DNA of 64,000 nt. Origin: Tribonema minus (taxonomy: Eukaryota; Sar; Xanthophyceae; Tribonematales; Tribonemataceae). This document shows, in pieces, positions 5,602-63,950 of the stretch. The DNA is taken from NCBI GenBank assembly GCA_017506865.1, contig JAFCMP010000501.1, positions 62,001 through 126,000 of the forward strand. Direction: 5' to 3'. Positions within the stretch are counted from its first letter, which is position 1, and each line of letters starts with the position of its first letter. Made by a program: the position numbers and the translations under genes. The notes beneath the pieces are model-generated. The model made no database searches. It was not told the origin of the DNA and saw only the letters and a list, made by a program, of their open reading frames with translations.

Positions 5602-8600
5602 ATGTCGAGAAGTCCCGCACCTGGTGGCGGCAGCAGCCGCCAGCCCAGCAACAGCCCCAAGAGAAAGAGGCCTCGCCAATTATCGCCACTGGCAGACAAA
5701 TACGAGCCGCAACCTGCTCTGCAGAGCGACAGCTCCTCCCATCAGGTGTTTCCGGAGTGGCTGTCGGAGCGCAAGGACTTCAGGCAGATTTTCGGCCACG
5801 GAGACCTATCGGAGGGGAGGGGGAAGCTGGTGAGGTCACTGAGGGCACCGCCTGAGAACAGGACTCTTGCGGACCTGCAGACCATCGCCGCATACTTTCA
5901 GACAAGCGACGTGCTGGCGCCTCTGGGGGGGAAGATACACGCGGACCTGGCGCGCACCGTCCTGTTTCAGGAGGTATGTACTTCAACAGCGAAGTTTACC
6001 TTGATGCGCAGAGTGCTGTCACAGGGGGGGAAATGCAAGAGGGGCACAATTCTCGCCGGCAACATTAAAAACGGTCCCTCTGCAGGTTGGAGAAGTATAC
6101 GCGTGTGTACAGCACAGCCCATAAAGTTGCCAACTAGCGCTGCCGTTGCCAAGACACTGATGAGTGCCGATGTTCAAGTCATCGCAGTGGGCTGTTGCCT
6201 ACAACACCGACCTGCAGCATCTGAATTAGAACATGGGCGATCCAGCTTGCAATGCGGCTTTGCTTAACTGTCAGTCAGGGTATCGGGTATCAGGGCGAAA
6301 GAAGTCATGACGACAAGTATGACACCAGAAGGACTTCGAAGAAGCAGCAAGGACCCCTGGTATGAGGGCCCATTTACGCTGAGTGCTGCACTGCAGTGAA
6401 GCAGCAGTAACGCCAGCAAGCAAGGAGCATTGTGCATCGGCCTGGTAGATGAATTGTGCCACTAAGGGCCTACCAGTGGTCATCGTTGACGTTGAGCGCT
6501 GACCAGCGACGTGTACTTAACGGTGAATTTCTGAGTTCTGTTGCGAATTGGCGAAAAAAAATGAAACGGTGCTTGGAGCGCCCAATGCAGTTGTCAGCTG
6601 ACTTACTCGTGCATCCTAGTGTGTCTGCCCTCGTATTCAGAGTTTAGGTGCCAGGGACAGTGCCACAGAAATGACATGATCAGGAAAGGCTTTCACCACA
6701 AGGACGCTGCAGAAACGGCACTGCACCTCAAGAGTAGCATCTTGACAGACTCGGGGTGCAGCACGACACACTCATCATCACCTTGTGTACATGAACTAGC
6801 GCAGTGAGTGTGCCAAGAAAGTTGTCTGTGAAGCGCAGTGCTCAGCGCCTGAGTCACTGCTCAGCCTCTGCAGTGTAGACTACACAGCAGCGTATGTGCT
6901 GCAAGTAGCTGCACGAGTGCCGGCGCGGCGCGGCGCGGTGAACTCAGAGCGCAGCCCTTTATCGCACTGTCATTGAGTCGCGCTGCCGCAGCAGCAGCGC
7001 GCGTAGGCCAAAGCAGCGCTCACAATCACCCAGCGCTGAGCAACTTGCGGATCACGGTGCCGCATGGCGGTGCACTTCGCTGGCACCATCCGTGTGCTCT
7101 TGAAGACCACTAGGTGCGGCACGGGTAGTGCTGCAGCAGTGCTCAATTGCCTCAACAACAGCGCTTCATACGCCTCAGCAGCGCCTTTGCACGCTCAATG
7201 CGTGCAATGCAGCAGCGCTCAATTCTGCCTCAGCAGCGCTCCACACACCCTCACCGCGCGCGACAAAGCATCGCTCAAAATTTGCCTCAGCAGCGCCCCG
7301 CACGCTCTCATCGCGCATTATGGAACAACGCTCAACTTTGCCTCAGCGGCACTCCACACCCTCAACGCGCGCGCGACGAAACAGCGCTCAACTTTGCATC
7401 AGCAGCGCCCCGCGCTCTCGGCGCGCGTGATGAAGCAGCGCTCATTTTCGGCGCAACAGCGGTCCACGCCCTCACTAGTTCAGCAGCGCTCAATTTCTGC
7501 CTCAGCTTGCCTCAGCAGCGCTCCACACGTCGCCGTCGCAGGTCCCCGCGGGCACGACGCTGGTGCGGCAGGGCGACATTGGCCTCGAGTTCTTCATCAT
7601 ACTCGCCGGCGCGGTACATGTGGTGGTGGACGGCCAGGACGTCGCGGACCTCACTGACGGCTGCACGTTCGGGGAGAAGGCGAGTGCTATTGAGCGCTGC
7701 CCCCAATGAAATATCAAAGTGTTGAAGTATGAGATGTGGTGGAGGACGGCCAGGACGTCGCGGACCTCACTGACGGCTGCACGTTCGGGGAGAAGGCGAG
7801 TGCCGTCGCCTAGGCGCAGCCCCCCAATGAGTGATGAAGTATGGGTGTTGAAGTATGAGATGCAGCGCCTGGAGCAGCGCCCCTGCGCGAGGCTCCTGGC
7901 TGCTGCAGCGGCGTGACGCAGCTAGTTGCCGTGGCAGAGCAGGACGCTCAGGGTGGACCCAATGCGGAAGCGCAGAGCAGCACTTGACCAGGACAGGCTG
8001 CGGTTACAGAGAAACAATGAGTGTAGGTGCTGGTGCAGATAGAGCAATAGTCCAAACGCAGGGAGGAAACAGTGTGAGACTGGTGCTGGACCAGTCCATG
8101 GTGAATTATTATGAGTACCTCCACTGTGGTGATAACCTTGGCAGATTTGTGGGCATAACAGAATGTAGGGTAGGTAGGTTTCATACTCCATCACAGCGCT
8201 CAACTGGGCTGCCCACCCACCAGGCTTGCCACCGCAGCAGCTCTCCGGCAGGCTGTGATGCGGTGGGCAAAGCATTGAGCACTGCGCACGGTACTGAGCA
8301 CTGACATTGTGCGCGCGGCTTAGCCCCGAAGCTGTGAAGCGCGGCGCGAGAGTCTGACCTCGGCGTCTTGCAAATTGCCATGTACAATTGTGGCCCGTGC
8401 AGCCATTCTGCCAACATGGTATACGGCTTTCTAACCCTCGTGGTATGCCATTTCTCATGCTCATGTCCAAGCCCATGTGTCAATGGTCTTGCGCGCTCAT
8501 GCTGGCGTGCATTTTGTCCCTGCGCCTGGTCCGCTGTCGCGCGCTCAGGCCCTTGAGAACAGCGAGCCGCGGAACGCCACCATTACATCCACGGCGCCAA

Positions 8601-12537: not shown

Positions 12538-14771
12538 TCATGCGCGCGCCGGCACAACGATGCTCAGGTTGGGGATGTCCTTGAAATCGAGGGCGTCCAG
12601 CAGCTCCTTGGTGTCTGGGTCTATTTCAATGCGCTCCTGCTCGATTGCGGACACCTGTAGATTTGAAGAAAGCGGCAGCAGTAGCAGCAGTTGAGGGGGG
12701 TCACCAGCGGAAGCGGTTGGGCCAATCTCGAGCTTGGGTCCTCACAAGTGACGGCAGTGGTTTGAGAGTTTCTTGTTCGCACACTTTACAGCGTTCGCAT
12801 TTGTGATTTGTCTTTTTTCTTCTGATGAAGTGGTTCTAGAACCGGGCGTTGCAGCTTGCGCCGCGCCGCGTTCAAGCTGCCATGCAGGCCAGCCCAGCAG
12901 CTGTACCTGAGACATCGGGGTTTCTGGTTGAATGCACAAGAGCACATGCTCCAACGCCGGCAGCACATGCGTCCGCGCTCTCTTTGATAACTGCCACAGG
13001 CTATGCCAAAAAATGTGGAGTGGCGTACATGTGAAGTGCACATAGCTTAACGAGTTCCGCTGTGTGCCAACGCACGGCACCGCATGCGACGTTGGTGTGC
13101 CTGCAGCAGAGCCACAGGCACGGACTCTTGATGTCGCTCGAGCGCACCCTCGTTTCTCGCGCGCGGTGCCGCGCGCTGTACCTCATCAAACACTGCACAT
13201 GTACTGCATCCACTCCGCTATGTACCTGCGGGTACAGAATGCCCACGTGATTCCCTGACATGCAGCACTTCAAGAATTTGCGCGTGTACGGTTGAAGTTG
13301 ATTGCAAGGTTTTGCGACGCACCTCCGGCACAAAGTCAAACAGCCTCTCCCCCTCCTCCTCCTGCAGCTTGAGCGAGATGCAGAGCGCAACATGCGCCCC
13401 CCCCCCCCCCCCCCCGGTAAACTGCATCACGTTCCCCGCAGGTACTGCATCACAATGAGATCTTGCACACCGCTACGTTATATCATGAGGCCAGGGTCCG
13501 CAACTCACCTCGGGCACAAAGTCGAGGCGCCGCTCGCGCTCCTCCTCCTGCAGCTTGAGCGAGATGCCGCGCACGGGGCCGCGCTGAATGCGCTTCATGA
13601 GGTGCGTGACGAAGCCCGCAATCTTGTTGCGCATGCGCTTGGAGGGGATGATGGCGACCTCGTCGCACACGCGCTTGTTGGTGTGGAAGTCCAGCGTCAG
13701 GCGCGCGTAGTACTTCTCTATGATCACGCGCGCCGACTTCTTGACGGTCTTGGTGCGGACGCCCTGGGGGACAAACAAAGGGGGGGGGGGGGGGGGTGAA
13801 GTTGAAGTTGAAGTTGATATACCAGGCGCGGCTGTGTGTGTGTGTGTGGGGCCCGCCGCCTTACGGTGCGAGCGGCGCATGCACGCGCATGCTGACAGTA
13901 ACTGCTGGAGCACCGTGAATCGACTGATGTGAAGTACATGAAACGCTCGCAATCTGGCTCATTACATTACGAGCGGCGCGGTGGCAGCAATCAGCTTGCT
14001 TAGGCGAACTTGCGCTCTCTGCGCGCCGCGCGGCTGCCTGCAGAAAGAACATGCACTTGCAAAAAACCAATGTCCGGTGGCTGCTGAGGACTATTTGCAC
14101 TTGCCGTGACTTCTGTAGTTGCCGTGCCATGGACGGTCTCAGGCTGCAGCTTGGAGAGGGAGAAGGTTGGAGCAAAAGCAACCAACCAGGCAGGTTCTAC
14201 TTGCCTACATAGCTGCTGCCTACGCACTACTGCGGAAGCCAGAAGCAGCGGCGAGAGCGCGGCAGCATAGCGGCAACACACACTGCCTGTCTCACGGATA
14301 AATAGCATCATGGGGTGTTGCGCTTGGCACAAGGCCTGGCGCAGCACATCGAGAGGCGGGCTGGAAAGGAAGCAGTGCTGGACGATAAGGGAGCGCTCTG
14401 CAGCAGAGAGAGGCGCCTCTTCCAGCTGCTGGGCGCGGTGAGTGCGCCAGTGGAGGGCTGCATGGGATCCCGGCTCGCCTTCTCGCGGTTGTACAGTGAG
14501 CGCAGCAGCGTTCTGGTCGTCAAAGCCAATCCACAGGGCACCGCGCTACGGCGCTCCACACTGCTCAAGGCGTTTCGGCGATGACTGCTTCTGTCACTTG
14601 GTAACATGTATGAGTCACCGAGTGCAGAACCAGTGCTTGTGCTTGCTCACTTGCTTGCTTGTACACCGCCGCTCGTGGCGTATTATGTACATCGCCTGGC
14701 TCTCACTCACTAGCCGGCATTGTGGTTCACACAATATAGAGCTATTCTTGCAAGGCAGCAGCACTCACCAT
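12538..14771 (-). CDS. RPS17: 40S ribosomal protein S17 (eS17)
   Basis: eS17 is a small-subunit ribosomal protein. Exon 2 (13509-13763) encodes [20 protein letters not shown] through [35 protein letters not shown] and LDFVPE. Exon 3 (12538-12654) encodes [20 protein letters not shown] and the tail, ending in TGA. These match eS17 nearly end to end. The initiator must lie upstream, because exon 2 opens with the residue after Met. The best candidate is an exon whose coding part is only ATG (14769-14771), followed at once by a GTGAGTGC donor. This gives 124 aa, slightly shorter than typical eS17 (about 135-140). That first intron (13764-14768) would contain one arm of an inverted duplication. 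Exons 2 and 3 are certain; the ATG exon is an inference. Confidence 0.85.
13320..13386 (-). repeat. RPS17: Decayed copy of the RPS17 exon 2 3' end and donor
   Basis: Intron 2 of RPS17 contains a second version of the exon 2 end, 186 bp from the original. Read on the minus strand it gives [19 protein letters not shown], against [19 protein letters not shown] in the real exon, and it is followed by an intact-looking GTGCGT. Upstream of it lies a C/G homopolymer. It is a partial tandem duplicate with several substitutions. Confidence 0.85.
13396..13415. repeat. Poly(C) homopolymer in RPS17 intron 2
   Basis: An uninterrupted C run on the + strand forms the edge of the decayed exon copy. A matching homopolymer (poly-G on the + strand, 13780-13797) lies upstream of the real exon 2 in transcript orientation, where it serves as poly(C) before the acceptor. 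Confidence 0.7.
14000..14574 (+). repeat. Inverted duplication, arm 1
   Basis: About 575 bp that match the reverse complement of 16273-16847 with scattered differences. It starts near GGCGAACTTGCGC and ends in GCTCAAGGCGTT. It carries a truncated copy of the small ORF present in arm 2 (MGCCAWHKA beginning near 14311), with its reading frame disturbed. It lies inside the inferred RPS17 intron 1. Confidence 0.85.
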
Positions 14772-16538: not shown

Positions 16539-16847
16539 GATGCTTTTATCCGTGAGACAGGCAGAGTGTGTGTTATGTTGCCGCTATGCTGCCGCGCTCA
16601 CACTGCTTCTGGCTTCCGCAGTAGTGCGTAGGCAGCTCAAGAGGAATTTGCTTTGCCTGGTTGGTTGCTCCAACCTTCTCCCTCTCCAAGCTGCAGCCTG
16701 AGACCGTCCATGTCTCGGCAACTACAGAAGTCACGGCAAGTGCAAATAGTCCTCAGCAGCCACCGGAAGTTGGTTTTTGCAAGTGCATGTTCTTTCTGCA
16801 GGCAGCCGCGCGGCGCGCAGAGAGAGAAGTTGAAGTTCGCCCCAGTA
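16273..16847 (-). repeat. Inverted duplication, arm 2
   Basis: This is the partner of arm 1 (14000-14574) in opposite orientation, separated by about 1.7 kb. It includes the first part of the 155-aa ORF and about 300 bp upstream of it. The outer end coincides with a GAAGTTGAAGTT motif (about 16827-16838) that arm 1 lacks. Confidence 0.85.
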
Positions 16848-19802: not shown

Positions 19803-22800
19803 TCATCCTTGACACGAAAGGCATACGTCACCGTCGCAGTAGCTGTCAGCGGCACCATCGTCATCGCCGCCGCCGCCCGCATCGGCAGCAGCCGCGCCAG
19901 CGCGCGAGCGCCACCCAGCGGCGCCGCCGCCGCCTGACGCCCTGGGGTCCAGCGTGAACTGAATGGCGCTGGCGGCGGGGCGCGTGCGCAGGTAGTACAT
20001 GCCCGTCTTGAGGCCGCGGCGCCATGCGTAGAAGTGCATTGACGTGAGGCGGCTGTAGTTGGGCTCCTCGACAAAGAGGTTCATGCTCTGCGACTGGTCG
20101 ATGTACGCGCCGCGGTCTGCGTCAGCGGGCAATGCATGAAGGGGGGCGGCGGCGGGGGGGGGGGGGGGGCACGAGTGAGTGACGTCATGTGGCTTCAACT
20201 GGATGCAGGTGTCGTGAGTGCGTAGAGCTTTCCTTCAAGATGGTGAACTTGAAATTTTATTGGCAGAAGCTTCAGATGTGAGGGAGTAACGCGGGAGCGG
20301 CTGTCTGCAAGAGGGACACTGCTTGCGGAGCGCGGATCATGGATTATCAGCAAGGTGCTGCTGCGTGCGAACGTGCACAGCGTGCAATGTACGCAGTCCT
20401 CCCTCGCGATCTGTGATGACAGGGTCAATGAAGGCGCTGCGCGCTGCGCGCAGGCCCTCACCGCAACCGCACGCCATCAAAAGTATTGCACCAACAAGCC
20501 AACCCAGACGCAGACCGCAGAGCGAGCAGAAGCGCTCACCGGCCGCGAGGTCGATAATCGTCTTCTGCTTGATCTCCCAGACCGTCTTGTAGAGCTCGCG
20601 CAGCTCCGCGGGCAGGCCTGGGAGCCGCATCACGCTGCCGCCATCAGCGATCAGCTGCGCGCGCGCGTCCGCCGTCCAGAGGCCGCGGTTCACGAGGTCG
20701 CGGAAGAGGTGCGGGTTCACGACGATGAATTCACCCGCCTTGACGCGCCGCACGTACATGTTGCTCGTGTACGGCTCGATGCACTCGTTGTACCCCTGCG
20801 GGCCGGGGGGGGCGCGGCGGAGGGTTTAATATGAGGCAGGGGTTGGGAGTTAGGGTTGGAGAATGGGCGCGATAGAGGCGCAGTCGCGTCACCGCCGATG
20901 GAACGAGAGATGTTGGCTGAATGCAACCACATTTATGGCGAGCAGAGCACGCACGCGCAGCAAAACAACCCGTTAAGACCCCCCAAGCCTGGCCCACGAG
21001 ACCACCAGAACGTAACACGCGCCTCTGTGAAGCCTCAAGCAAAACTGACCGACACTGCCAAACAGCGCTTTGCGACCGCATTCACCCAGTATGACTGAGC
21101 GGCGGACACCATGGGCATCGGCGCCAGCACCAGCGTGCTGCGCAGAGTCACCTCAAGCTCAACCCTCTCATCACACTGCAACACACGCGCCGCTGCAAAG
21201 CTTTAAGCGAAAAATGCCAACATTGCCGAGCAACGCTTCGCGAACGCGCACGCACCAGTATCTGAGCTGTGGACGCCGTGGGCATCGGCGCCAGCAGCAG
21301 CGAGTTCCGCAGCCCCGTGCGCGCGACCCGCTCCTTCAGGGCCCCCCAGTCCCACCGCCCCCCCGGCGTCCCCCCCTCCTGCCCCCACAGATCAAACTGA
21401 AACCGCCCCTGGCTCATGGGACTCCCCTCGTACGAGTCGTAGGGGCCCTCGAATGCGGCGAGGTCCGAGCTCGCCGTGAGCGCGGCGTGGTACATGGTCT
21501 CGAAGATCTCCTTGTTGAGTGCGCGCGCGCCGTCCGACTCAAAGGGGAGCCGCATGAGGATGAAGGCGTCGGCGAGGCCCTGCGCGCGATCGAGGGAGAT
21601 GGAAGTGTGACAATGTCGGTTACTGCATTGCGCTGGCGCGTGTCACAGTCGCGTTTAATTGGCCGCGAGGCCCTGCGCTCGCATGAGGAACGGGCCGGCA
21701 GCAAGTATGTATACTAAATAATGCCAGTCACCACGCAGGTATGTACCAATGACAATTATCACGTGCTTTCACAGCCGTGTTTAATGGGTGAGGCGCCAGG
21801 CTTCAGAAGGCACGCGGCACACCGCGCAGCGTCTCAGGCGTGCTTGAAGGCCTACATCAAGATCAGTGTGGTGGTGCGCGGGGGTGGCCAGGCTTGCGCC
21901 GAGCTTCACGCGAATGAGTGCTTGCAGCGGTCGCTGATGCAGACCACGTGCAGCACGAATGCAGTTTGCGCATTGCTGCAGTGCACGCCAAGCGAGCGCG
22001 ACACGATGGAAACATGCGTCTCGGAGACTTCACTGTAGAATGTTATCGTAAAACGCGCGCAGACTAGAAGCAGACACGTGACTATGTAGGCGTCAGCCTG
22101 GCTTGGCCAGGCCCTGCGCAGCACCAACCCTAACCCTTACCCTAACCAACGTGCGTGACGCCCAGATACAGATTCACACTGTGCTCAGAGGCGGCGACAG
22201 AGAGTCCGAATTGGCGCCGGCTCACCTGCACGCCGATGCCAATGGGGCGGTGGCGCAGGTTGCTGCGCCGCGCCTCCTTCAGCGGGTACTTGTTGGCGTC
22301 GATGATGCGGTTGAGGTTGCGCGTCACCACTTGAACTGCGGCGTGCAGCGCCGCGTGGTCAAAGTAGGGCTGCGCGGGCTCGGCGCTGCCGCCGCTGCCG
22401 CCGCCGCCATCGTCAGCGCCCGGCGGCTTGATGACAAATCGCGGCAGCACCAGCGACGCGAGGTTGCAGACGGCGACCTCGTCGGGGCTGGTGTACTCGA
22501 CAACCTGAAGTTCAAGGTGAAGAAGGGGGGTGGAGGGGGGGCGCGGGGGGGGGGGGGGGGGGGGCACAGGTGACTAAGAAACCGATGCACTGGAACAGGG
22601 ACAGGGTGCACACCCAGCTGAGCCAGGTGGTGGTTGCCATGCTGCACTTGTGCTAGACTACGGCCACGTCCGCACCCTGGGGCTCCATGGTCTTAACAAT
22701 ACGCGCCGTGCACACACAACAGCACCGGAGCTCGGCCTACACAGCAGCAACTTCTTTTTTCCTCTTTTTCCCTCAGGCGCTCACACACTCTGCCTCCAAA

Positions 22801-25800
22801 ACTGAATTCACGTTGTCTTCACTCGTGTGTCTTCACTCGTGTGTGTGTCACGCCCAGCCCCTGACCCTAGCCCTAACTGTAACCCTAACTAGCGGCTGCG
22901 CTCACCTCGCAGCACAGGTTCGACGACCGGATCGTCCCCAGATTCTGCTGGTTGGACTTGGCGTTGCACGCGTCCTTGTACATGATGTACGGCGTGCCTG
23001 TCTCAATCTGCGCGTCCAGGACGCGGTACCAGAGGTCGCGCGCGCGCACGCGGCGCACGTACCGCCCCTCCTTCTCATACCTGCACGCATGGGGTCACAG
23101 CAAGGGGGGGAACAAAGGGGGTTAAAAGCGCCACTGACGTTTCAGGTCACTGGGCGTGCCGGGTGGTGCCGCTGCACGGGTGTGTAGGCATCACTGCATG
23201 CAGTGTAGGGTACATACCAGCCCTCCGCATGCGTGCCTGCGAGCGGAGCAGCGGTCGAGGAGGGCCTCGCTGTAAGCCATTACACTCTGCGCGCGTCTCT
23301 GCAGGCAAAGAGCCGACCGTACTATACAGTACACACTTCAACACTGCAATGGGTGCGGTGTGCTGCGACTCACGCGGTAAGCACCACGCTTCTGATCCGC
23401 GGTTGGTGCACGACTGTAAACTCTGTAAAGGCAGAGCGCGTGCGAGTCCGCCCGCACTGCTGGTCCAAGCACACACGCAAGAGCGCCCCCCTCCCCCCCT
23501 AAAGGGACCAGCACCCAGCACCAACAGCTTCAACAACAGAAAGACCCAGCGGCAACCCAACTTCAAGAAAGCACCAAGTGGCATACGCCCCAAGCTCGCA
23601 TCAGAGTGACCCCAATCAAGCACAAGTGCGCGCGCCCCAATCACTCATCAACCGCATCCTAGCGCGCATACGCGCATACACTCGTCTTGAAGTACGTATA
23701 TGCACACTGAAGTACATATATGCATACATTTGAGCCTTGCCGCTCGTACAGCTCATCAACCCCATCCGAGCGCACATATATATGCATGTACATATACGCA
23801 TGCATTGGGCCTCACCGCTCGTACAGCGCGTCGAACTCCGGCCCCCACGCGTCAGCGAGCCCCGGGCACTGGTGCGGGCACATGAGCGACCACTCCGCGT
23901 CCTCCTCCACCCTCCGCATGAAGAGGTCAGGGACCCACAGCCCATAGAAGAGGTCGCGCGCACGTAGCTCGTCCTTGCCGTGGTTCTTGCGCAGCTCCAG
24001 AACCTCCTCCACGTCCGCATGCCACGGCTCCAGGTAGATGGCGAACGCGCCGGGGCGCTTGCCGCCGCCCTGAAACAAGTGGTGGAGGTCAGGGTGAAGT
24101 GTAAGTTGAAGTTGAACTTAAAGTAATGTGGAGGTTGCGTGCCACGGCTCCAGGTAGATGGCGAACGCACCAGGGCACTTGTCGCCGCCCTGAAAAGGAG
24201 TGGTGAGCAGGGTGAAGTTGAGATAGTGGAGGTTTGAAGTTCGACTTCAAGTATGTGAAGTCTGATGTTGGTGGTGATTGCGCCGGGGCGCTTGCCGCTG
24301 CCCCGGAAGGGGTGGTGGTGAGCACGAGCACACAGGGCAGGAGTTGAGGAGTGGTGGAAGTTTGCGGTGGAACCTTAAGTTTGTAAAGATTGCGTGTTGC
24401 GGCGCGAGGTGAGCGGCCAACGCGCCAGGGCGCAAGCCGCCGATCTGAAAGGGGGGTGGTGGGCAGGAGTACTCACAGAAGAGAGCGCTTGCAGTGGCCA
24501 CCGTCACCGTGCACATCCAACGCTGCGCAAGCACGCAGGCGCGGCAGCGCTGCTGCCGCTTCGGTCCCCACACACCCTCCGCGGGGCGCACGCCACGGCG
24601 CAGCAGACGGTTCAACCAACCAAGCACTCCTCTGTACCATCCAAAAGAGGGGTTCACGTCACAGCATTAGGCAGCAGCGCTCCGCAGTAGCGCTCGGCGC
24701 GCACCTGATCGACGTAGCGCGCGGTCGCGTCAAACACGCGCAGCATGGGGACGAGGCCGTTGGACGTCCCCTTGGTGCCCTTGATGTACGTCCCCTTGGC
24801 GCGGATGTCGTGTACGCTGAGGCCAATGCCGCCCGCGCCCTTGCTGATCTGTGCACAGCGCTTTAGGGTGTCATAGATCCCCACGATGCTGGGGGTGGTG
24901 CACGAAATGGGGGAAGGGGGGAGGGGGGGCTTAGCACAGTTGTCGTGCAATTGAGCGCAGTCAAGGGAGGTGCGTGACAATGCAGGGCACGGGCTATTGA
25001 GGACTGAGGTGCGCCGCCAAAGCAGTCCTTGCGCTTCAATCGAGCTGGCGCAGGCAGCGCTGCTCTCCATCATAGCCATACGCTAGCAGCAGGGCTCACC
25101 TACCCACGGTCACGGTGAGGTAGGCAGCAGATGCTCAGCTGTGTCGCAGGCAGCACTGCTCAACACTGTAGCCAAACCCTAGCAGAACGGCTCACCCTCT
25201 TCGCCCTCATGGCGAGCAGGCTCAGCTGTATCGCACGCAGCACTTCTCAACGCTGTAGCCAAACCCGAGCAGGAGGGCTCACCTGTCCTCGGTCATGGTG
25301 AGCAGGAAGCAGCTGCTGAGCTGCGGATGCGCGGTGCCCGCGTGGAAGAGCGTAGGGCTGGCGTGTATGAAGAACTTCCTGCTCATGAGGTCGTACGTCT
25401 CAAACGCGGCGGCGAGGTCGGCCTTGTGAATGCCGAGCGCCACGCGCATGAACTGCGGCGCGAGGGGGTGTGGGAGGGGGGGGGGGGTTACAAGGGTGCA
25501 AAGTGGCAGACATGTGATCAATTGTGCATCTGTGCATGGTGTGGCAGCTGTCAGTGCTGGTTGACTGGACATGCACTAAAGCGCAACAGGTGTCTTGCAA
25601 TAAGCCGCACTCGAACGTCCGCATACATCAACTACGAAGGACCCCATAGACAAATGAAAACGAATCAAAAGATCGTAGAGCTCTAGGTGACAAAGAATGG
25701 TCGGCCGCAAGTGCCTTCCACCAACAGCCGTGGTCGCCGCTGCTGCAGAAATCTTCTTTCATGCAGTTCGCCCACTTCATCCTGTGCAAATGCATTCACG

Positions 25801-40400: not shown

Positions 40401-40424
40401 TGAAGGACGGGTGCCATTGCAGCC

Positions 40425-40620
40425 ATGTCTGCACTCCAACGAACATCAGCAATGACGCGGAAGAATCCGCTGCCGTAGCTACCACGTTTGCGCCTCAAAC
40501 AACCATCAGCGACGGAGCTACAGGGCTGGCGCCATTGCTGCCACGTTCAACAAAGTTTGCGCGTCAGACAACCATCAATGAAGGAGCTGCAGGATTGGCG
40601 CCATCGCTGCTATCGGCGCG
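40425..40620 (-). repeat. Tandem copies of the helical-repeat gene's last codons and stop
   Basis: The coding end of the minus-strand gene (GANPAAPSLMVV then TGA, stop 40564-40566) is followed 69 bp downstream by a copy reading GASPVAPSLMVV and a stop at 40495-40497. A third, weaker copy lies near 40432. The unit includes the stop codon. Confidence 0.85.
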
Positions 40621-47557: not shown

Positions 47558-50500
47558 TCAAGGCGCACGCACTCGCGCCAGGAATGGGTTCTGACTCGAC
47601 CCCAGGAACAGGTAGCCCGTCGTAGGGTGCCGCAGCGCCGTGCTGACGAACGGCACGCGCCCCGTGGGGTCGTGGTAGCTGGCCTGCACCTCTCCCGTCT
47701 GTGCGTTCAGCTCCAGCACGAGGCCGTAGCGCGGTATGAGCCGCTCCATGAGCACCGGGCCGAGCAGCGCGACGACCGCGGAGCGCGCCGCCGGCGGCAG
47801 CCAGAACATGTAGTGCAGCAGCGAGAACGGCTTGGCGGCGCGCGTGCCGACGCCGATCAGGAGCGTCGCGGCGCCGCCGCCGCCGCCGCCGCCGCCGCTG
47901 CTGCCAGCGGTCATGGCTGCAGGAATCTCGCTGCCGCGCTCGACGGACTCGTCGCTCTCGATGACCTCGCCGCCGCCGGCGTCGGCGCCGGAACCGTCCT
48001 CGTACGGCGCGCTTTCCTCGAGGTTGTCCGCAAAGCCGGGCAGGTTCGCGGCGAGGACGCGCACGTGCGGCGGCAGCGCGGCGCCGCTGCAGCGTGTCAG
48101 CGCCGCCGCCGTGGCGCTGGCGTCGCCGGCGTCCGCGGAGAGCGCGGCCAGCGGCACCTCGAGGACGCGGAAGCGCAGCGACTCTGCGATGAGCGCTGTC
48201 GTGCCGTTGCGGATGACGACGCCGTTGGCAAAGTGCAGGCCGCACAGGAGCGTCTTGAGGGAGCCGTCGGCGGGGTCGAAGCGCAGCAGGCGGCCGCGCG
48301 GCGCGGCGTCCAGGATCTCCAGCTGCGGCGCCGGAGCACGCAAATGAAGGTTAGGATTGATAGGCATGTAGGTTGGCTGCGGCGCCGGAGCACGCAAATG
48401 AAGGCTGGGATTGATGGGTACGCAGGTTGGAGGTGCGCGGGACTTTGAGAGCGGTGGCGCTGGCGACAACTTGGCGAATGAGTGCATCTGTCGAATTCCG
48501 TGGCGGGCATGCGTAAGTGCCGTGCAGCTTTGCTAAATCGCGACCTGATTGCGCTGGAAGTCGGCAGTTGCTCAGTGACAGCAGCACTCATGCAACAGCT
48601 CCAAGTACCCGACACTAGCAAACGATGACACCATGCGCCATGCGCTACGCTTGCGCATCATGAGTGTCGCGCGGTTCCACTGCCCAAGACAGTTTGTGAT
48701 CACGTACGCTGAGCATTGCAGAAACTCTCTGTGAGATTGGAAATGCGTGCTGTGGTCTAGTGAAGCGACACCAGCCACACCAGCAGTACGCACTACCACC
48801 CCTTGCACCCCGGCCGCTCCACATCAGCAATCACTCAACGTTCACAACATCGCCACCAGGCTGGCCGAGCGTCAACTGCCGCAAATCACAAGCGCCACTC
48901 CCAGCACACGCATTCGACCCCCCCCCCCTCCCCCCCCCCCTGCGCTCACCCTGTTGTTGAAGCGCGCGTGCTTCCAGCTCGAGTCCGTGATGAGGAACGT
49001 TCCGTCGGGCGCCAGCGCCAGGTCGTTCAGGAAGCGCACCGGCCGCCGCGTGTCGCGGTGCGCGCGCGCGCCGCCCGCCGCCGGCTCCGGCACCGTGCTC
49101 GCCGCGTCGAACAGCTGGCGCGCCGCGTGCCGAGCGCTGACGTCCAGCGCAAATAGGCCGTGGTACGCATCCAGAACGTAGAGCGTGGCGTTGGAAGCAA
49201 CGAACTGCAGCCCCAGGGGGCGGCCGCAGCGGCGCTCCGTGTCCTCGCTCGCGCCGCGGTTGCGCGCGCGCGCTGCCGCGGAGCACTCGGCGCGCAGCTC
49301 TGCGCGGGGGCGGCGGCGGCGGCGGCAGTGCACGGTGTTGTGAGTGACAATGGTGCATTTCGAATATGTTGAGAGATGTTGAATGGCGTGTGAATAAGGT
49401 TATGCGGGCGTGCGCTGCGGCGGCGCCGCGAGTCTGCGCTCGAGCGGCAGCGACGTGAGCGCGCAGGTGCGAAACAAGACTTCAGGCCGCAGAGGTCAAG
49501 CTGAGCATTGCTACGCTGTGTGCAGCTGCATTGACAGCAGCGCTCCGCACCCTGCCTAAGGCTGCAGACGCGCGCGCCCATTGCCGCATAAGGGGGGACG
49601 GACAGGTTTACGCTCTGCAGTTCTTGGTCCTAGCGACTGTAAGCTACTTGAGGTTGACAGCAGTGATGCGTCAAGCTGCGCACATGCGCCGCAGCCGCTC
49701 TGCAAAACCGACAAGGACGTCAGAGATTACGCATGCGAAACGCAGCCGCGAGGCGTGCACATGTGCCTCGAATGAGAGTGGGGATGGGCATACCATATCG
49801 GCATTGACGTGGTGCAAGAGTGAGCAGTGCGCGGCAGCGACGGTCGCAGAAGCGGTGGCATGCTCGTGGTGTAAATCTGCACGTCACTGATGGTGCTGCA
49901 CTCAGTACCATGAGCGCAACGGCTTGTGCACGGCGGAACAGTCGGTGCATGGATCTGCGTGGTGGTGCAGTAAATCCGCCCATGTTTACGGTGACATGCT
50001 GGCCGAGCGCGAGCGGCAACAGCAAAGGACCTGGCGAAGGTTTCGAGCCTCTCGCATGCCGTTCCACACACGACGCTTGCACCTCACGCAAACTACTCAG
50101 GGCGCGAGCGCAGATAACCGCTGCAGGAGTTTACACGGACGCCCGCTCTGGGTACCTGGGCACAGACACTAGACACCAGAGCGAGACGGTGAAGGGATTG
50201 ATGAAGCGCGCCATAGGCCTCCGGCATGTAGGTATGTAGCCGCCGTACCCCACTTGACCACCCTGCCAAATACCATCACGCCTGTGCTGGCCAACGGTCT
50301 GGCTTGACCCCAGTGGCACACCACACTAGCACATAGTCATACAACACGATTGCTTCTGAAGTATACTTCTTGAAGTTCAACAGGGCAGAGGCACGTCACT
50401 AGGTGCTCCGTGCTCACCCTTGCCGCACTCCTCCAGGCCCGTCTTCGCGCCCGCCTCACGGCACTGCGAGGATAGGAAACCGCCGACGAAGAACACGGTG

Positions 50501-51801: not shown

Positions 51802-52863
51802 ATGCTGCGGCCAGCATTCCGATGGGTTAGGCGAGTCCAGCCCGGCAGCGCTGCCGGCGCCTTTACTTCACGCCACTTGAACAACAGTGCCAGCACCGCG
51901 GCCCCAGACAATGACAGTGCCCCTAAGCTTCCTCCAGAAGTCACCATCGTGGAGGTAGGACCTAGAGACGGGCTTCAGAACGAGCGTACCCCCATCAGCG
52001 CAGAGAGCAAGATTGGCTTCGTCAATCGCCTGGCTGCAGCTGGCCTGCGAAGAATCGAGGCGGTGTCATTCGTGAGCCCCAAATGGGTGCCGCAGATGGC
52101 AGATGGAGCGGCGGTCATGGCTGGCGTAGATCGCCCCCCAGGCGTCCGCTACATGGCCCTGGTGCCTAATTTGAAAGGCTTGGAGGGAGCGGTGTCCGCC
52201 AAGGTGCACGAGGTGGCCGTCTTCGCCTCCGCCTCCGAGACCTTCAGCCAGCGCAACATCAACTGCACCATCGCCGAGAGCATCGAGCGCTTCAGGCCCG
52301 CGTGCGCCGCCGCCGCCTCCGCCGGCCTCCCCGTCCGCGGCTACATCTCCTGCGCGCTGGGCTGCCCCTTCGAGGGCGCCGTCCCCCCCGCCGCAGTCGG
52401 CCGCGTCGCCGAGGCGCTGCTCGCCGTCGGCTGCGCCGAGATCTGCGTCGCGGACACGGTCGGCGCGGGCACGCCGCTGCGCGCCGCCGCCGCGCTGCGC
52501 GCCGCCGCCGCCGCCGGCGTCCCGCTGCTGCGCCTCGCCGCGCACTTCCACGACACGTACGGCCAGGCGCTCGCCAACATCCTGACGGCGCTGCAGATGG
52601 GCGTCACGACGGTCGACGCGGCCGCGGCGGGGCTCGGCGGCTGCCCGTACGCGCCCGGCGCCACCGGAAACGTCGCCACGGAGGACGTCGTGTACTTGCT
52701 CGAGGGCTGCGGCGTGCGGACGGGCGTGGATCTGGAGCGGCTGCTCGACGCGAGCGACTACATCTGCGGCGCGCTCGGCGGCGGCAGGCTGCCCGCCGCC
52801 GGCGCGGCGCGCGCGCTGCTGCTCAGGCGCAGGGCTGCGGCGGGTGCGGCGGCGCAGCAATAG
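51802..52863 (+). CDS. HMGCL: Hydroxymethylglutaryl-CoA lyase, probably mitochondrial
   Basis: The enzyme cleaves HMG-CoA to acetoacetate and acetyl-CoA in leucine breakdown and ketogenesis. One intronless frame of 353 aa, a rare case in this window. The first about 35 residues (MLRPAFRWVRRVQPGSAAG...) are Arg/Ala/Ser-rich and acid-free, a good mitochondrial presequence. The TIM-barrel motifs follow: VEVGPRDGLQNE (catalytic Arg-Asp and metal site), EAVSFVSPKWVPQMAD, SASETFSQRNINCTI, RGYISCALGCPFEG, CVADTVGAGTP, AHFHDTYGQALANI (metal-binding histidines), and GLGGCPYAPGATGNVATED with the active-site loop cysteine. The C-terminus is an Ala/Arg/Gln tail ending in TAG, without a peroxisomal signal. 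ATG 51802 is preferred over an in-frame ATG at 51550, which lies in the neighbour's coding sequence. Confidence 0.96.
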   Translation: MLRPAFRWVRRVQPGSAAGAFTSRHLNNSASTAAPDNDSAPKLPPEVTIVEVGPRDGLQNERTPISAESKIGFVNRLAAAGLRRIEAVSFVSPKWVPQMADGAAVMAGVDRPPGVRYMALVPNLKGLEGAVSAKVHEVAVFASASETFSQRNINCTIAESIERFRPACAAAASAGLPVRGYISCALGCPFEGAVPPAAVGRVAEALLAVGCAEICVADTVGAGTPLRAAAALRAAAAAGVPLLRLAAHFHDTYGQALANILTALQMGVTTVDAAAAGLGGCPYAPGATGNVATEDVVYLLEGCGVRTGVDLERLLDASDYICGALGGGRLPAAGAARALLLRRRAAAGAAAQQ

Positions 52864-53230
52864 CAGCGGCGGCGCCGGCGGTAGGTCCGGCAGCGCCGGC
52901 GGTAGGTCCGGCGGCGCCGCAACAGTGGCGGCAGCGTGCTGCTGCTCAAGCGCAGCGGCGGCGGCGGTAGGTCTGGCAGCGGCGGCGGCGGGAGTGGTGG
53001 AGGCGGCTGTGGAGGCGGCGGCAATGAGGCGACGACACACATCACTCTGGGGGGCAATTGGCAAGCTGGCGTCCTTGGCGCAGCGCGTGCACTGCTGCTC
53101 AGGGCCCGTTTGGCACCGCAACAGCAGGGTCAGTAGCAGCGGTGAGAGCTAAGATCTGCAGGGTACGGATGCCCTTGGCAGGCGCGGCGCGCGCTGCTGC
53201 TCCTGCGCACGGTGGGTCGCAGCATCAGCT
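52801..53230 (+). repeat. Decayed copies of the HMG-CoA lyase 3' coding end
   Basis: The final coding segment (ARALLLRRRA, CGCGCTGCTGCTCAGGCGCA) is echoed downstream of the stop near 52931-52965, 53055-53125 and 53168-53228, spaced roughly 120 bp apart. The second copy is the best, alignable over about 60 nt (GGCAAGCTGGCGTCC...CTGCTGCTCAGG). A short direct repeat (CGGCGGTAGGTCCGGC) lies between. Confidence 0.7.
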
Positions 53231-55090
53231 GCATCAGTGACCAACACAGTTCGCTGACGGAGCAATCGTCATGCTTTCACCGCCTTCGACATTACAGCTC
53301 TTCCCCACAGCTGTGGGTTTTCGCTCGGCTGCAGCAAGTGCACTCGTCAAGGTGCAGTCGAAGTCTAGGATGCAGAGATGTAGCATGTTGCGCCCAACGG
53401 CCGCCGGTGCCAGATGTGCTTGCACGCAGGCGAGCTTGCGTCAGGCTCAACGAGGCTGTTCACAACCTGCGCGGACCATACCATGTATATAGAAGGCACC
53501 CGCTGTGAGACCTTAGAATGTTGATGCAAGCTGCTTGTGATGCATTTGCACAAAGTCAACTTTGAAGTTGATACAGGAGGGCGGCGGCAAGGCACCAACC
53601 TCGGGGCATTGGCAGCCGATGGCCAGGGCCTGTCCATCTGCTTGCCAGATCAGAACAGCAGCTACCTTGTGGTCATGTGTATAGACATTGTACAGAGCCC
53701 GCCATGTCTTAGCACTGAAAAACGCGCTGACATGGTGTCCGTGCGGGTGCTTGACAATGGCGTACATGCCACTACAACAAAGGCGCGCAGCACCGTTGCA
53801 AGCCACATGCACAATCACAGTTGCTGCAGCATACGCCAGTTCCTTTCATAATTGAAGTTGAGCATTGGCTCCCCCAATCATCGAGTGCCGCTGTCCAAGT
53901 ACTCAACATGTGCTGCTGCTTACATGCGCTTGCGTGCCTGCATGCATATGCACTGCATACTCCAGAGTGCCACCTTTGAATGGCTTTACTACTGAGCACT
54001 GATGACTGTCACTTGCTCATGTGGTCCACATGTAAGAAGTACCTACAGCATGAAGTTGCAATGGCGCCATGCAGAATTGTGTAGCGCGCGGCGAAAGCCT
54101 GCGCCTGAACCGCCGTCGCTGCACACAAAGTGCCAACACGCAATGGCGCTGCCAGCAATGACTGTTGTCAATGAACATTGTACATCTGCTCCGTGATCTT
54201 GCAAGTAGGCACAGGCGGTGGCGTCACAAGCAACATTGCGGCACGAAGAACAACTGCATGGCAGAAAAGGCGATGGACTGAGATTGAGGTTGCGCCTGTA
54301 TGAGGACGGAGCATAGTTGTTAAAATGATCCTCCGCCATTGTAAATTTATGATGCGCGTGCATGGTCGTGGTACCTTTGTAGAATGAACGCGCGATGCTG
54401 CACCAAGGCGACGCCGTCGTCGCCGCTGCACTACCAGCAGTAGCTAGCAGCAGCACCACTGCACCAATTGAGCCGCTGTACAACCCCCGGGGCACTGCTT
54501 GCACCGAAGCCCCCAGTCGCATTACTCAACAACTCGATGCTTTTGCCTCAGCGCGTGCAGCAGTACTCAAATACGTTGCTGAGCACCTGCACTCCTACAG
54601 AGGACTACATGGAGGGGCCTGCGTGCTGTGTACTCCAACACTCTGCTCCCAGTCTATGTGACCACCGCTCAGAAATGTCTCTTACTGCCCGTCCGCCGCT
54701 GTAAACGCCCGTGGGAGTATGTGCTGGTCAAACGGACGGGCCTGACGGACATCACATTGCCCGGACGAGGGGGAAAACTGGAACTTCCGCGATCATCACG
54801 CCAGTCCTGTAAAGTGTTTGATTGCGAGGCGCGCCCTCTCCCTTGCATGCCAACCAACGCGCCTCCTCCTCCTACGCGCTGCCGCCTTACTCCGCAGCCT
54901 CCTCATCCCCCCCCCCTCCCCCCGGCTCCGGGTGCTTGGGGTCAACGCTGGTGCCGTCCGGCCAGACGTCAATGTAGTCAGCGTCGGGCCAGGTGATGGC
55001 GCTGACGGCCTTGTAGCGGCGTGCAAAGTCGGCGTAGGAGAAGCCCTGGCGCCGCACGCAGAGGTTCTCCTCCAGGCCCAGGTACGTCAC
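53231..55090. other. Intergenic, with an unexplained open frame at the right end
   Basis: There is no supported gene between 53.2 and 54.88 kb. (TTGAAG)-type motifs occur at about 53561 and 53851. At 54887-55090 on the minus strand, directly after the TAG of the carrier gene, 67 further in-frame codons stay open and are rich in acidic and aromatic residues (FSYADFARRYKAVSAITWPD). Confidence 0.5.
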
Positions 55091-58000
55091 CTATTCCAAG
55101 TTGCGCTTGGCCACCTCGTACCCGAGGAACAGCGCGGCGTTCGCGGGGAACGCGCGGACGCACGTGACGGTCACGCCGGCGAACAGCGCGCGCGGGCCGC
55201 CCGCGGCGACCAGCGGCCGCGCCACTGCGCTCAGCGACCGCGGCCCGTGGGGCGTCACCTGCAGGGAACAAGCACAGTTCATGAAGACGAATCAAAAGAC
55301 CGTAGAGCTCTAGGTGACAAGGCGTGTTAGCCGTCAGATTGAACGCCTTGCGCCAGTGACCGTGGTCATGATTTGTGGACGTAGATCAGATCGGGCCAGG
55401 ACGGTTCAGTGTGGATCAAGTCGTTTCAGGACGGGTCAGTTCAAAACGCAGACACAATGGGCCCGTTCAGATAGATACTGATTCTGAATCGTGAGCTGTT
55501 CTTGGTTCTGCTGTGGCCGTGAACTGCGCCTTCCCTTGGACACCAGCTCAAATTGCAGATCCTGGAGTTGGCGCTTCGACATGGGCTTCAGTCTGCATAC
55601 TTTGTTTTGATCTGTAATGTGAAGACAAGACAGAACTCTTTGTCTTTCATAAAAAAAAAGCAAAATTGTAATTTTGATACGGAAAAACTGGTCACCTGCA
55701 TCCTGCTCTTGAGCACGTCAAAGGGCATGCTGAGGAGCCAGCCGGCGACGCCCGCGAGGCCGCCGGCGCCAATGTAGGCAACCTCGCGCGGGAAGGACGT
55801 GCGGCGCATGGCCTGCTCCACGAGCACGTCGTACACGCCAAAGAACATGCTGCGCGCAGGGGGGGGGGGGGGGGGGGGGGGCGCGGGGGGGGGGAGAGGG
55901 CAAGCGCTCAGAAAGGGTCGGCGCACGGCGCCAGGCGGCATTGGCTGAGCATGAGATCTTGTTGCTTCGGGACGTGTCGCTGGCTCGACGACATGCGCAG
56001 CGCACCGTCGCGTGCGCATGCAGGGGTCAGGGATGCCGAGGGTGTCTCTGCACACGTTTTGATGAGTGCATGCCTCTGTGCACGTTTTGATGAGGACGTG
56101 CCATGGCGCCAGAAGTCGGCATCGCAGAAATGACCGTATGCCATCGGCGAGCACCACTTGCTGCAGCATGTGTACACCACGACGGATGATGCCGTGCTGG
56201 GTGCGCGCTCGGTCCGCGCCGCGGGGCCCTTGAGTGTTGAGCCCAATGACTTGTCAAGCCACACCTCTCAGAACTCAATACGCGGGGGCGGCGAGACGTG
56301 CAGAGCACCAGGAACACGCCTGCGCGCACCGCGCCGAGGACGTTGTGCGCAACTTCAACAACAGCAGCGTCATGCACCACCTGTGCCCTCCCCGGTGAAA
56401 AGTGCCGCTGGGGCGCCATCGTCGAGAGGGCGCCAGCATGCAGCACGCAAGACGCTCCAGGTAGACGGGCTTCAGCACCAGCGGCGTTGATTGAACTGGC
56501 CATGACTACACCACTGCCCAAATGCAGCCCCCCCCTTCCCGCCCCCCATGCCCCGTGCACGCCCGCCGCTCGCCGCTCGAATCACAGCAGCATACAGCCC
56601 CCCACTCCCCGTGCCCCCCCCCCCACCCATAGAAGTTTTAACATATTGGAGGCATCACCTGAAGAACAGCGCGTCGCGCGCCACCTGCGCCCGCAGCCCC
56701 CTGTAGAACCCCCGCATCCCCTCTGTCCGCACCATGAGCTGGGCCATTTCCACGGCGTTGGGGGCGCGTCGTGCTGCAGTGCCGCGCGCCACCTGAACGC
56801 GACATTTGATGACGTCAAAGGGGCACAGGGCGACGGCTGCGGAGGGTGCAGCAAGGGGGGGGGGGGGAGAACGATTGTCATGGCATCAATGATCACATTA
56901 GCTGATGGTAGAGGGATAGACGCGGGAGGGAAGGGGGGTAACGAGCTCTGCATGTTTGCCACATCATCCTGCGAGCGTCTCGGACACGGCAATTGAAGGC
57001 TGCAAGATGTGACAGCGCAGCTGCGCAAGGTGCAGGCTGATCAACTCTGTGAGCTATCGTGATGCGCAGGTGCTGCACCGGGTGACGTCAGGCCATTCGC
57101 CAACAGGTCATCTGCCCCACCACCAGTCATGTAGCCGGCAAAGCAGTGGCATCGCTGCATTGACCGGCATCAGGGACTGCCTGAGACCATGTGCAGCTCT
57201 CCAGCTGCGCATCCTCCGCACGCCGCACTTCCACTGCACAAGCGCCCATGCTCTGATGTGCGTTTCCGAGCGCCCATCGACGGATCGCAATGCAAATTTT
57301 GAGCTACCGAGGAATCCCGTGCATGTTATGCGTTTCAGAGCGTCCGTTGACGGATCGCACGCCAACTTCCAGCTACTGAGGAACCCCGTGCACGTTGTGA
57401 GCTACTGCAGGTACGCACCTGTAACGGCCCCCGTGACAGCTCCATAGGCCACAGGCTGCACGGCAGCATGCCTGTCTGACGGCGGCCACAGGAGCTTGAG
57501 CTCCTTGTTGATGGCAAACGCCACGATGTTCTCAACGACTGCGCCGCTCAGCGCTGGCGTAGCGCCTTTCCACAGCGACGCCACGCCCTCCTGCGATATT
57601 GTGGTGCGCAGGCACTGCATGGCGCCGGAAAATGCCTGGAATCGGAGCGGGTAGGACACCGAAGTAAGGGTTGGAGTTGGGGCGGTGCGCAGAGGGCATG
57701 GTGTTTGTTTGGAGGCTGTCAACACAGAGCAGGGGCGCGGCCGCATTGCTGATGGTGCTAAAGCAAAGGTCGCCGATGCGGGGCACATATCCATTTCATA
57801 ACGGTGACTGACGGCAGAGCAAGGCTGCAGTCGCATGTCCTGGAGCGGCGTCAGCTGTGGTGATGGCTTGACAGCAAGCATCAACTATACCGCACAAGCA
57901 GGTCTAGGGTAGAACTACAAGACGGCAGACCGCCACAATTTGATCATGAGGTGTCACAGTTGGCGGTGATGGTGCTTGTTGAGGCTGCTCTGATGCTTCA

Positions 58001-61961: not shown

Positions 61962-63950
61962 CTAGAGCTTGCTCCCTGCTGCTGTGCCCCACTGCACGCC
62001 TAATTGCCGATACTCGTCCAGACACTCTGGATTCACCAATGCGCTCACGTTCGTCACCTGCGTCCATGGCGAACATGGCAGTGGTTGTAGTTTAACACGT
62101 GTTTGTTTGACACGTCTGCATTGGCATTCATACGTCAGTTGCCTCATTATGTTGATAGCGACACAAGAGTGCTCAGGCGGTGCATGTCGTGCTTTGAATG
62201 GCGCAGCAACTGCTGCAGCAAATCATGCGCAACTGCTGCACATGTGGTGTGAGCAAAACCACCAATGGCATGTGCGTTTTACGGAGAGTACGACCTAAGC
62301 TCAATTTATCAGTCGAAAGATCTCCTGTCACATGAGTTGCAGTGATTTAGAGGGATCGTCCGCACACTCACGCGGGTCAGGTGCGAGTCCCTGATGCGCT
62401 GCGCAAAAATTGACCACTCCAGCTTGCATTCCCAAGCACAGCACAACAAAGGCCACAGCAGATGCCTAAACACCATCTTGTGCAGCACACACACATACAT
62501 GCTGAACCCACGACTACTTTCGCCATTAAACGGCTCATGCGACGGCCACCTATGCCCAATCACCTTTGTGCAGCACACGCCCAGGTTCATGAAACTCACG
62601 AGTGCCAAAGCTCCGTACCTTTTCGCCATGGACGGCCCTTGTGACGGCCACCTCCACCTTCTTGCCGCTGCGCGTGTAGGGCACGTCCGCAACGCGCACC
62701 ACATCGCGCGGCACGTGCCGCGGCGTCAGCCGCGCGCGGATCGTGGTCTGGATGGGCGGTGAGAGCAGCAAGGGCAGGGCTTGTAAGGGCCAATAGCTTG
62801 CTGTTGGGAAAAGGGACAGCTGTGCAAACGATGTGAACAGCGGAAGCCAAAGCCGTGCACGCGGAGTGTGATGCGCGGTGCATCTTACGTGTGCCGCGGC
62901 GTCAGCCGTGCGAGGATCGTGGTCTGCTTAAGCGCTGACAGCAACGAAGGCGGAGCTTTACAGTTGCGCACACGATGTGTACCGCGGGGAGCGGAACCCG
63001 TGCGCGCGGAAAATGATGTGCAGTGCATCTTACGTGCGCCAAAGATCCTGTGACGGGCCTCGCAGATCTGGCAGAGCACACAGTCTTAGCTATAGTGAAA
63101 TCGCACTTCAATGCGCTGTTGAAGTATGGGTGACGCACCTTGATGAGCTTGACCATGTCCTCGTCCAGCACGTGCCCATCCGCCATCTTCACGAACAACA
63201 CAACATCGACGTCGCCTGCGCTGGTGCGCCGGCCAATCGCCAGGCTGTCAGCGATGGCGGGAAGAGTCTCCACCTGGCGGTAGATCTGACAGACGCGGCA
63301 GAGGAGGGGCGAGCACCAGTGCCATTTGTCAGGGCTTGTACGATCATGCGGGTCGGACCGTTCCGAACAAAGACCTGTGCGTGGTGTCTTCATCACGTCA
63401 CACTTTGGCTCTACGTTGGGGCACCGAACTTGCAACAGCGCCAGCAGTAGCGCGCAGCACATTAGGTATAACTCAGCGATTCCACTTCTCACGCCGGTGA
63501 GGCATCGGACGTACAACAGTGACAGTGCGCTGCGTAGCATACCTCAGCGATTCCGCTTCTCACGACGGGTGAGGCATCGCGCCTGCAACGTTGACAGTAC
63601 GCGATGGAGCATACCTCAGCGGTCACGATCCTCAGAAGACAAGCAACGGACCCGCAATACTGTAAAGGCACAGTGTGTAACGCAGCACACCTCAGCGGTC
63701 CCGGTTCTCGCGGCAAGAGTGGCTTTGGGCGGGCAAGAGTGGCTTTGGGCGTGCAACAGTGACAGTGCGCGAGTTGTGATGAATAGAAGCATACCTCAGC
63801 AGTTCCGATTCTCACGCCGCCAGGGTTTAAAGTGGCATCGCTCCGCCCGTGCACAACCACGCCGCCCCTCTCGTTGACCTCGATGAAGTCGCCGTGGCGC
63901 CACATGTCCTCGCCCTGCGCAAAGTACGCGTCCCTGTACTTGAGGCCTTG
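61962..63950 (-). CDS. AACS: Acetoacetyl-CoA synthetase, C-terminal part, with peroxisomal SKL end
   Basis: The enzyme activates acetoacetate to acetoacetyl-CoA with ATP. Four 3' exons are in the window (63795-63950, 63139-63285, 62619-62747, 61962-62057; 175 aa, all phase 0); the N-terminal two thirds lie beyond the right edge. Motifs of the acyl-CoA synthetase C-terminal domain: [38 protein letters not shown] continuing across a splice to [32 protein letters not shown], and [15 protein letters not shown] with the catalytic lysine of motif A10. The tail [14 protein letters not shown] matches the AACS-specific C-terminus, which distinguishes it from acetyl-CoA synthetase. It then extends to end in SKL and TAG, a canonical PTS1. 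Two introns carry echo arrays of the flanking exon edges. Confidence 0.92.
62835..63040 (-). repeat. Tandem partial copy of the AACS penultimate-exon start and acceptor
   Basis: The acceptor and first codons of exon 62619-62747 (CAG then ACCACGATCCGCGCGCGGCT) are copied 176 bp upstream in the transcript at 62884-62926, reading [12 protein letters not shown] further block (GATGTG...GTGCATCTTACGTG) occurs twice, near 62839-62893 and 62969-63035, showing that a unit of about 130-150 bp was duplicated. Confidence 0.8.
63430..63830 (-). repeat. Echo array of an AACS exon 3' end and donor (about 72-bp unit, 5 copies)
   Basis: The end of exon 63795-63950 (RIGTAE) with its GTATGC donor recurs with CTCAGC (exon edge) at 63691, 63615, 63543 and 63472, giving spacings of 104, 76, 72 and 71 bp. 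Copies read TAE or IAE before GTGTGC or GTATGC in sense, so most keep a usable donor. The larger first gap contains an internal duplication of GGCAAGAGTGGCTTTGG. All extra copies lie in the intron. Confidence 0.92.

Follow-up and report, generated by a model that had tools for sequence, protein, structure and literature searches.

In a 64,000-nucleotide stretch of the genome of the xanthophycean Tribonema minus (GenBank assembly GCA_017506865.1, contig JAFCMP010000501.1, positions 62,001 to 126,000, forward strand; hereafter the window), tandem units of about 54-186 bp were observed at many exon borders, each unit private to its own locus. Alignments show the copies to be direct, adjacent and colinear, the arrangement that defines a border-crossing tandem duplication, and to pass through the border from exon into intron. 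Nine strong arrays have a unit holding both exon and intron (or 3'-flank) sequence; in these the nearest copy of the border, here called an echo, lies 69-186 bp from the border itself, with further copies up to 375 bp away. Ordinary local tandem duplication, in which the crossing of an exon edge is tolerated, probably explains most of this pattern.

Tandem copies at exon borders

Windows of 60 bases, exonic or not, were moved in steps of 20 and compared with noncoding DNA up to 800 bp away; dinucleotide-shuffled targets served as the null, with coding targets and simple repeats masked. At P<1e-3, 158 of 2642 scorable scan windows were positive, where about 2.6 were expected, and these group into 20 clusters. 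The scan depends on the gene models and gives a poor view of the GC-rich HMG-CoA lyase case described below. Individual edges were tested against second-order Markov targets (600 draws, Gumbel-extrapolated). Scan clusters, repeat searches (including TRF) and alignments were combined by hand into arrays. The echoes are confirmed as real and above chance, and an assembly artefact is unlikely because the copies have diverged from one another.

GC content ranges from 51 to 73% across the window (2-kb windows). Genes were modelled with a strict ab initio setting followed by hand curation by homology, while the last exon of the helical-repeat gene, exon 1 of the APMAP-like gene, the ends of AACS and the acceptors of the mitochondrial carrier were set by reading the sequence. 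The models comprise a TIM21-like gene, a cyclic-nucleotide-binding-domain (CNBD) gene, RPS17, the ribonucleotide reductase large subunit (RNR), a coiled-coil gene, a helical-repeat gene, an APMAP/strictosidine-synthase-like gene, HMG-CoA lyase, a mitochondrial carrier, the C-terminus of acetoacetyl-CoA synthetase (AACS) and an ankyrin-like gene. The Pfam families HMGL-like, cNMP_binding, Ribosomal_S17e, AMP-binding_C, Str_synth and SGL were detected, and none was found for the helical-repeat and coiled-coil pieces; the TIM21, carrier, ankyrin, helical and coiled-coil genes are what we take them to be from reading the sequence. For the 11-exon RNR model, the protein could be aligned with yeast Rnr1 over residues 22-798 with gap-free junctions, and its exon borders are therefore the safest of all models. 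The 31 modelled introns (median 579 bp) are GT-AG, with at least one GC-AG, and the 83 edges comprise 31 donors, 32 acceptors with a further doubtful one, 10 stops and 6 starts, the other 3 having no assigned kind.

The nine strong crossing arrays lie at six donors (CNBD exon 2, RPS17 exon 2, RNR exons 4, 6 and 9, AACS exon 1), two acceptors (RNR exon 6, AACS exon 3) and the stop of the helical-repeat gene (Table 1). An earlier note on this DNA, written from the sequence alone, had listed copied borders at nearly all of these places, and at most of its entries the copies were recovered with per-edge P values of 4e-4 or lower: at the RPS17 exon 2 donor, at RNR exons 4 (donor), 6 (acceptor) and 9 (donor), at the AACS exon 1 donor and exon 3 acceptor, and at the helical-repeat stop. 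The echoes at the RNR exon 6 donor, the AACS exon 3 donor and the stop of the coiled-coil gene are additions to its list. Two entries held in part. CNBD exon 2 had been described as copied on both sides; the donor side stands, and on the acceptor side the last profile match of the array ends at 7529 while the exon starts at 7542, leaving it about 12 nt short, with no significant exon part. Copies were also found at the 3' end of HMG-CoA lyase, as claimed, but they are weak and lie in very GC-rich DNA. The APMAP-like acceptor, described as mainly intronic, proved to be so: the copy reaches the first exon base in one alignment and 18 nt in another, and the P value comes from the intron part.

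Table 1. Coordinates of exon-border echoes and related arrays in the window. Distances run from border to echo; identities are exon side, then intron side.
Feature	Position	Strand	Description	Identities	Per-edge P
CNBD exon 2	7542..7679	+	followed by GC-AG intron		
CNBD exon 2 donor echo	7616..7856	+	64 nt exon plus intron; 116 bp	62/64, 43/51	1.5e-16
RPS17 exon 2 donor echo	13261..13573	-	186 bp	56/65, 38/63	1.4e-10
RNR exon 9 donor echo	21003..21335	-	170 bp; nearly whole unit alignable	59/74, 62/82	5e-10
RNR exon 6 donor echoes	23625..23845	-	75 and 145 (weak) bp		1.4e-6 with ~40 nt each side; 0.11 with exon alone
RNR exon 6 acceptor echoes	24008..24500	-	120, 233, 375 bp; four copies in total	48/53, 53/61	9e-11
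RNR exon 4 donor echoes	25043..25355	-	87 and 183 bp		4e-4
Helical-repeat gene stop echo	40391..40612	-	69 bp		1e-5
AACS exon 3 acceptor echo	62715..63045	-	176 bp	31/33, 79/133	6e-5
AACS exon 1 donor echoes	63458..63857	-	104, 180, 252, 323 bp; unit ~72 bp, five copies in total		3e-4
AACS exon 3 donor echo	62518..62668	-			8.9e-5
Coiled-coil gene stop echo	39028..39403	+	~258 bp; weaker		8.4e-5
HMG-CoA lyase 3' end	52746..53237	+	GC-rich partial copies, weak		7.5e-4; farther copies 0.0088
CNBD acceptor-side array	7135..7529	+	intronic; unit ~56 bp; TRF and profile matches		exon part 0.14; half exon/half intron 0.03
APMAP-like exon 4 acceptor	48322..48430	-	two 54-bp mainly intronic copies, inner ends at about the exon start		1.7e-5
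Large repeats within RNR intron 2	26301..27580	-	wholly intronic, no edge involved		
Mitochondrial-carrier intron 1	57249..57387	-	two 69-bp intronic copies, 32 nt from donor		

The GC-AG donor of CNBD exon 2 (AAG/GCGAGT, border at 7679-7680) is carried as an intact copy by its echo. Marginal edges were left uncounted: the carrier exon 2 donor (P 0.0045), the RNR exon 9 acceptor (0.018), the RPS17 exon 3 acceptor (0.021) and the APMAP exon 3 acceptor (0.083). The TIM21 donors gave P 0.13 and 0.14 in the per-edge test. With units above 10 bp, the intronic tandem arrays fall into the minisatellite/satellite class, and the crossing arrays additionally hold exon sequence. The statement in the earlier note that the real boundary is always one of the copies is accurate for the crossing arrays; it does not demonstrably extend to RNR intron 2, carrier intron 1 and the CNBD acceptor array.

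Distribution of the copies relative to exon borders

Among the classes of scan window, those in introns or within 400-nt 3' flanks were positive in 119 of 1128 cases and those spanning an edge in 28 of 202, while starts and other unscored edges gave 0 of 18. Exon windows whose centre lay no more than 100 nt from an edge were positive in 10 of 211 cases, those centred farther away in none of 318, and intergenic windows in none of 696. The rate in introns and 3' flanks was 7-12% at every distance up to 600 bp and higher beyond, owing to RNR intron 2 (45/104 positive). With that intron included, edge-spanning windows did not differ significantly from introns and 3' flanks (Fisher P 0.18); without it (74/1024) they were more often positive (Fisher P 0.003), both P values being optimistic since the scan windows overlap. 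The earlier note had held that the association would amount to general tandem duplication if mid-exon or intergenic segments were echoed as often as exon edges. Edges do exceed deep exon and intergenic DNA, but they resemble introns and 3' flanks unless RNR intron 2 is set aside. Duplications associate first with introns and 3' flanks and then, perhaps, with edges; their absence from intergenic windows is no less striking than their presence at edges.

In a test on whole arrays, 13 strong ones were compared with units of the same length placed at random wherever no exon would be destroyed. Left out were the weak coiled-coil and HMG-CoA lyase stops, the single-window clusters 11001-11060, 11381-11440 and 21461-21520, and the AACS exon 3 donor, which was found later by an exon-anchored test, though scan cluster 62461-62520 points to it. 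Over the whole window this unit-length null expects 2.62 crossings (P 9e-5 for the 9 of 13 observed). When whole array spans were placed in transcribed DNA instead, 6.8 crossings were expected (P 0.16). We prefer the unit null on the grounds that the first duplicated unit alone decides whether an edge is included, which is an argument and not a result.

Several forms of this test were discarded. Array spans over the whole window (13/14 against 5.5, P 3e-5) were superseded, as that null merged the CNBD exon 2 array and scored two further arrays as crossing, that of APMAP, which merely touches a border, and that of the carrier, which lies near one. Array spans in transcribed DNA (13/15 against 8.1, P 0.007, or 10/13 against 6.8, P 0.059) miscounted the CNBD acceptor as crossing, and an early unit-length version with 12/15 and 10/13 crossing, which included that array, was replaced by the strict one. 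The closeness of noncoding clusters to edges (P 8e-6 to 1e-4) was dropped, crossing arrays being edge-clipped by construction.

Three observations weigh against plain local duplication. Introns and 400-nt 3' flanks hold every one of the 13 arrays (P 0.003), which is not expected from plain duplication. Under the unit-length null restricted to transcribed DNA, 3.61 border crossings are expected and 9 of the 13 arrays show one (P 0.0013). Constraint on the exon copy prolongs the time for which a border-crossing echo can be recognised, by 1.24-fold in simulated duplications for which ages were taken as uniform and the relative exon rate as 0.35; even so, the decay-corrected expectation of 4.2-4.6 falls below the nine observed, with P 0.004 at detection odds of 1.25 and 0.010 at odds of 1.5, rising to 0.034 at odds of 2 and 0.13 at odds of 3. 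Finally, the exonic share of the nine crossing units, from depths entered by hand, is 0.19-0.55 and none is mostly exonic (Kolmogorov-Smirnov P 0.036). Local duplication does not explain why the arrays are confined to transcribed DNA, why borders may be crossed in excess or why mostly exonic units are lacking.

A process tied to splicing or transcription, such as breakage or stalled forks close to splice sites or R-loops, could instead make or favour border duplications. The roughly twofold excess of crossing units that remains after correction under the unit-length null, the lack of positive intergenic windows and the crossing of seven donors but two acceptors (P 0.10) all point in its direction. 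Against it, the breakpoints lie away from splice sites, with 24-74 nt of exon included in the nine strong units; crossing also occurs at stops, where there is no splice site (3/10, of which two are weak); no significant excess appears under the array-span null; and the sample is small, from a window picked because a reader had noticed the pattern before testing. We therefore regard such a process as unlikely, and slightly more so the broader proposal that this lineage channels tandem duplication to transcribed DNA and exon borders through it, with introns growing outward from their edges and spare splice sites continually supplied. The earlier note took recurrence at edges to suggest a mechanism or selection tied to splice sites. 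An excess at borders appears under the corrected unit-length null and not under the array-span null: a modest border excess is possible but not proved, and these data neither establish nor refute a mechanism linked to splicing. The note's premise, that exon edges should make no difference to random duplication, is mistaken, because selection should remove mid-exon duplications, units of 54-186 bp are sizeable beside the median intron, and the exon copy changes less.

Decay of the copies

Over whole units, comparing the nearest copy in each of the nine crossing arrays, exon parts matched at 344 of 416 positions and intron parts at 465 of 687, against a mean identity of 0.47 for unrelated 90-mers aligned likewise; this count replaces a comparison of six hand-picked pairs. 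The exon part was more alike than the intron part in eight of the nine arrays, RNR exon 4 being reversed, and in trimmed local alignments of 16 pairs the gap was smaller (597/711 for exon, 379/471 for intron, summed by hand). The higher identity of the exon part fits a single constrained copy. Differences between exon and echo numbered 33/232, 38/241 and 43/238 at codon positions 1, 2 and 3 (16 non-independent pairs), the pattern to be expected of an echo that drifts as noncoding DNA does, beside a nearly unchanged exon.

The copies could instead be retained by selection as spare or alternative splice sites, for which the persistence of the splice dinucleotide in 12 of 16 copies, with one more ambiguous (hand reading of alignments), might speak, as might a border-to-echo distance divisible by three in 9 of the 16 cases, slightly over the expected third. 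However, neutral decay would by a hand estimate leave about 11 of 16 dinucleotides at about 18% change per site, and since change is even over the codon positions the exon parts of the echoes are not kept as coding sequence. Nothing in the sequence appears to point to use of the copies, and we consider selection for spare sites improbable.

Duplication and intron length

Visible arrays, with spans set by hand, occur in 12 of the 31 introns and make up 4189 of 21734 intron bases, filling up to 76% of single introns; some, as in RNR intron 2, lie away from any edge. Local tandem duplication is a visible source of intron length here, in line with the earlier proposal that introns grow by repeated duplication. 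Under the duplication that we favour, short stretches (about 54-186 bp) within transcription units would be tandemly duplicated by ordinary local duplication. Where a unit straddles a border, the copy still attached to the remaining exon, and with it the outer edge copy, would stay in use; we infer that the protein would be unchanged and the duplication nearly neutral. The other copy would become intron or 3'-flank sequence, decay at the noncoding rate and perhaps duplicate again, intron growth being a by-product.

A different origin is the birth of introns by duplication of an exonic AG/GT segment (the Rogers model); the earlier note had proposed duplication at AG/GT-like protosplice sites. 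Copies of exon ends are indeed present in introns, but this model expects the upstream exon end at the 3' end of the intron and the downstream exon start at its 5' end, and 62 tests on the 31 introns gave a smallest P of 0.033. The model fails for visible arrays, while old gains would leave no trace; moreover, the echo units straddle the site and hold intron sequence past the donor, which makes this origin very improbable. Equally remote is the idea that the copies are introner-like mobile elements or a common repeat family, as the presence of repeats in many introns might suggest, since the 13 array profiles found no convincing match elsewhere in the window (best E outside the own intron 0.03, among the top six outside matches per array).

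If 12 of 31 introns is typical, local duplication would be a main source of intron length here. The border copies also provide splice sites at successive stages of decay, whose retention and use could be measured, and a border excess that survived genome-wide would indicate a mutational process tied to splicing.

Other features of the window

Between RPS17 and the ankyrin-like gene lies an inverted duplication of about 570 bp (14007-14574 and 16273-16831, 92% identity), possibly a transposable element or gene fragment. The frame of the ankyrin-like gene itself (16983-18358) is broken, with three stops in the best single frame; it may be a pseudogene or hold undetected introns. Telomere-like CCCTAA repeats occur in RNR introns 8, 7 and 2 (22128-22145, 22871-22888 and 27864-27875), possibly as scars of double-strand-break repair, and a single TTAGGG in RNR intron 9 (20850); single hexamers elsewhere may be due to chance. 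A dispersed 40-bp repeat, 95% identical, is shared by RNR intron 3 (25654-25693) and carrier intron 3 (55281-55320).

Searches of viral and prokaryote collections with RPS17, the carrier and RNR returned no intron-bearing algal gene among the matches listed; the RNR matches were contigs of the viral collection at 41-61% identity. One contig filed under an Oscillospiraceae metagenome-assembled genome (L003, 5902-6054) carries an RPS17 stretch 59% identical over residues 57-107, which may be eukaryote contamination.

Comparison with known systems

Intragenic tandem duplication shapes introns. A duplication that crosses an exon border is an already known kind of event; its density in the window and the decaying series of copies were not found described in the literature searched, where no survey of decaying exon-edge copies in introns appeared among the matches listed, as judged by title and abstract opening.

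The lack of short introns in many green algae still awaits an explanation. Core-Reinhardtinia algae have long introns and miss the usual short-intron peak, with a driver that is likely ancient and a cause that is left open (PMC8226300); unlike here, tandem duplication of exon edges is not mentioned in the portions of that study available to us.

In Drosophila, novel intron positions arise through tandem duplication or sliding, and 624 of 1901 duplications in fly lines take in some exonic sequence without a whole gene (cited in PMC2891723). Partly exonic tandem duplications are common there, as in the window. The new fly positions come from coding duplications with protosplice sites, and the account, in the sections consulted, is without decaying edge copies beside unmoved introns (PMC2891723).

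In the potato RdRp gene, according to the parts of the report consulted, a tandem genomic duplication crosses an intron-exon boundary and a separate 83-bp tandem duplication lies in intron 1 (PMC4974935). Both there and in the window a direct tandem unit joins an intron end to an exon end, and splice signals are inherited with the unit. In potato the duplication gave a new spliced intron and inserted exon sequence, whereas in T. minus the extra copies are intronic or in 3' flanks, diverged, often multiple, and present at several genes.

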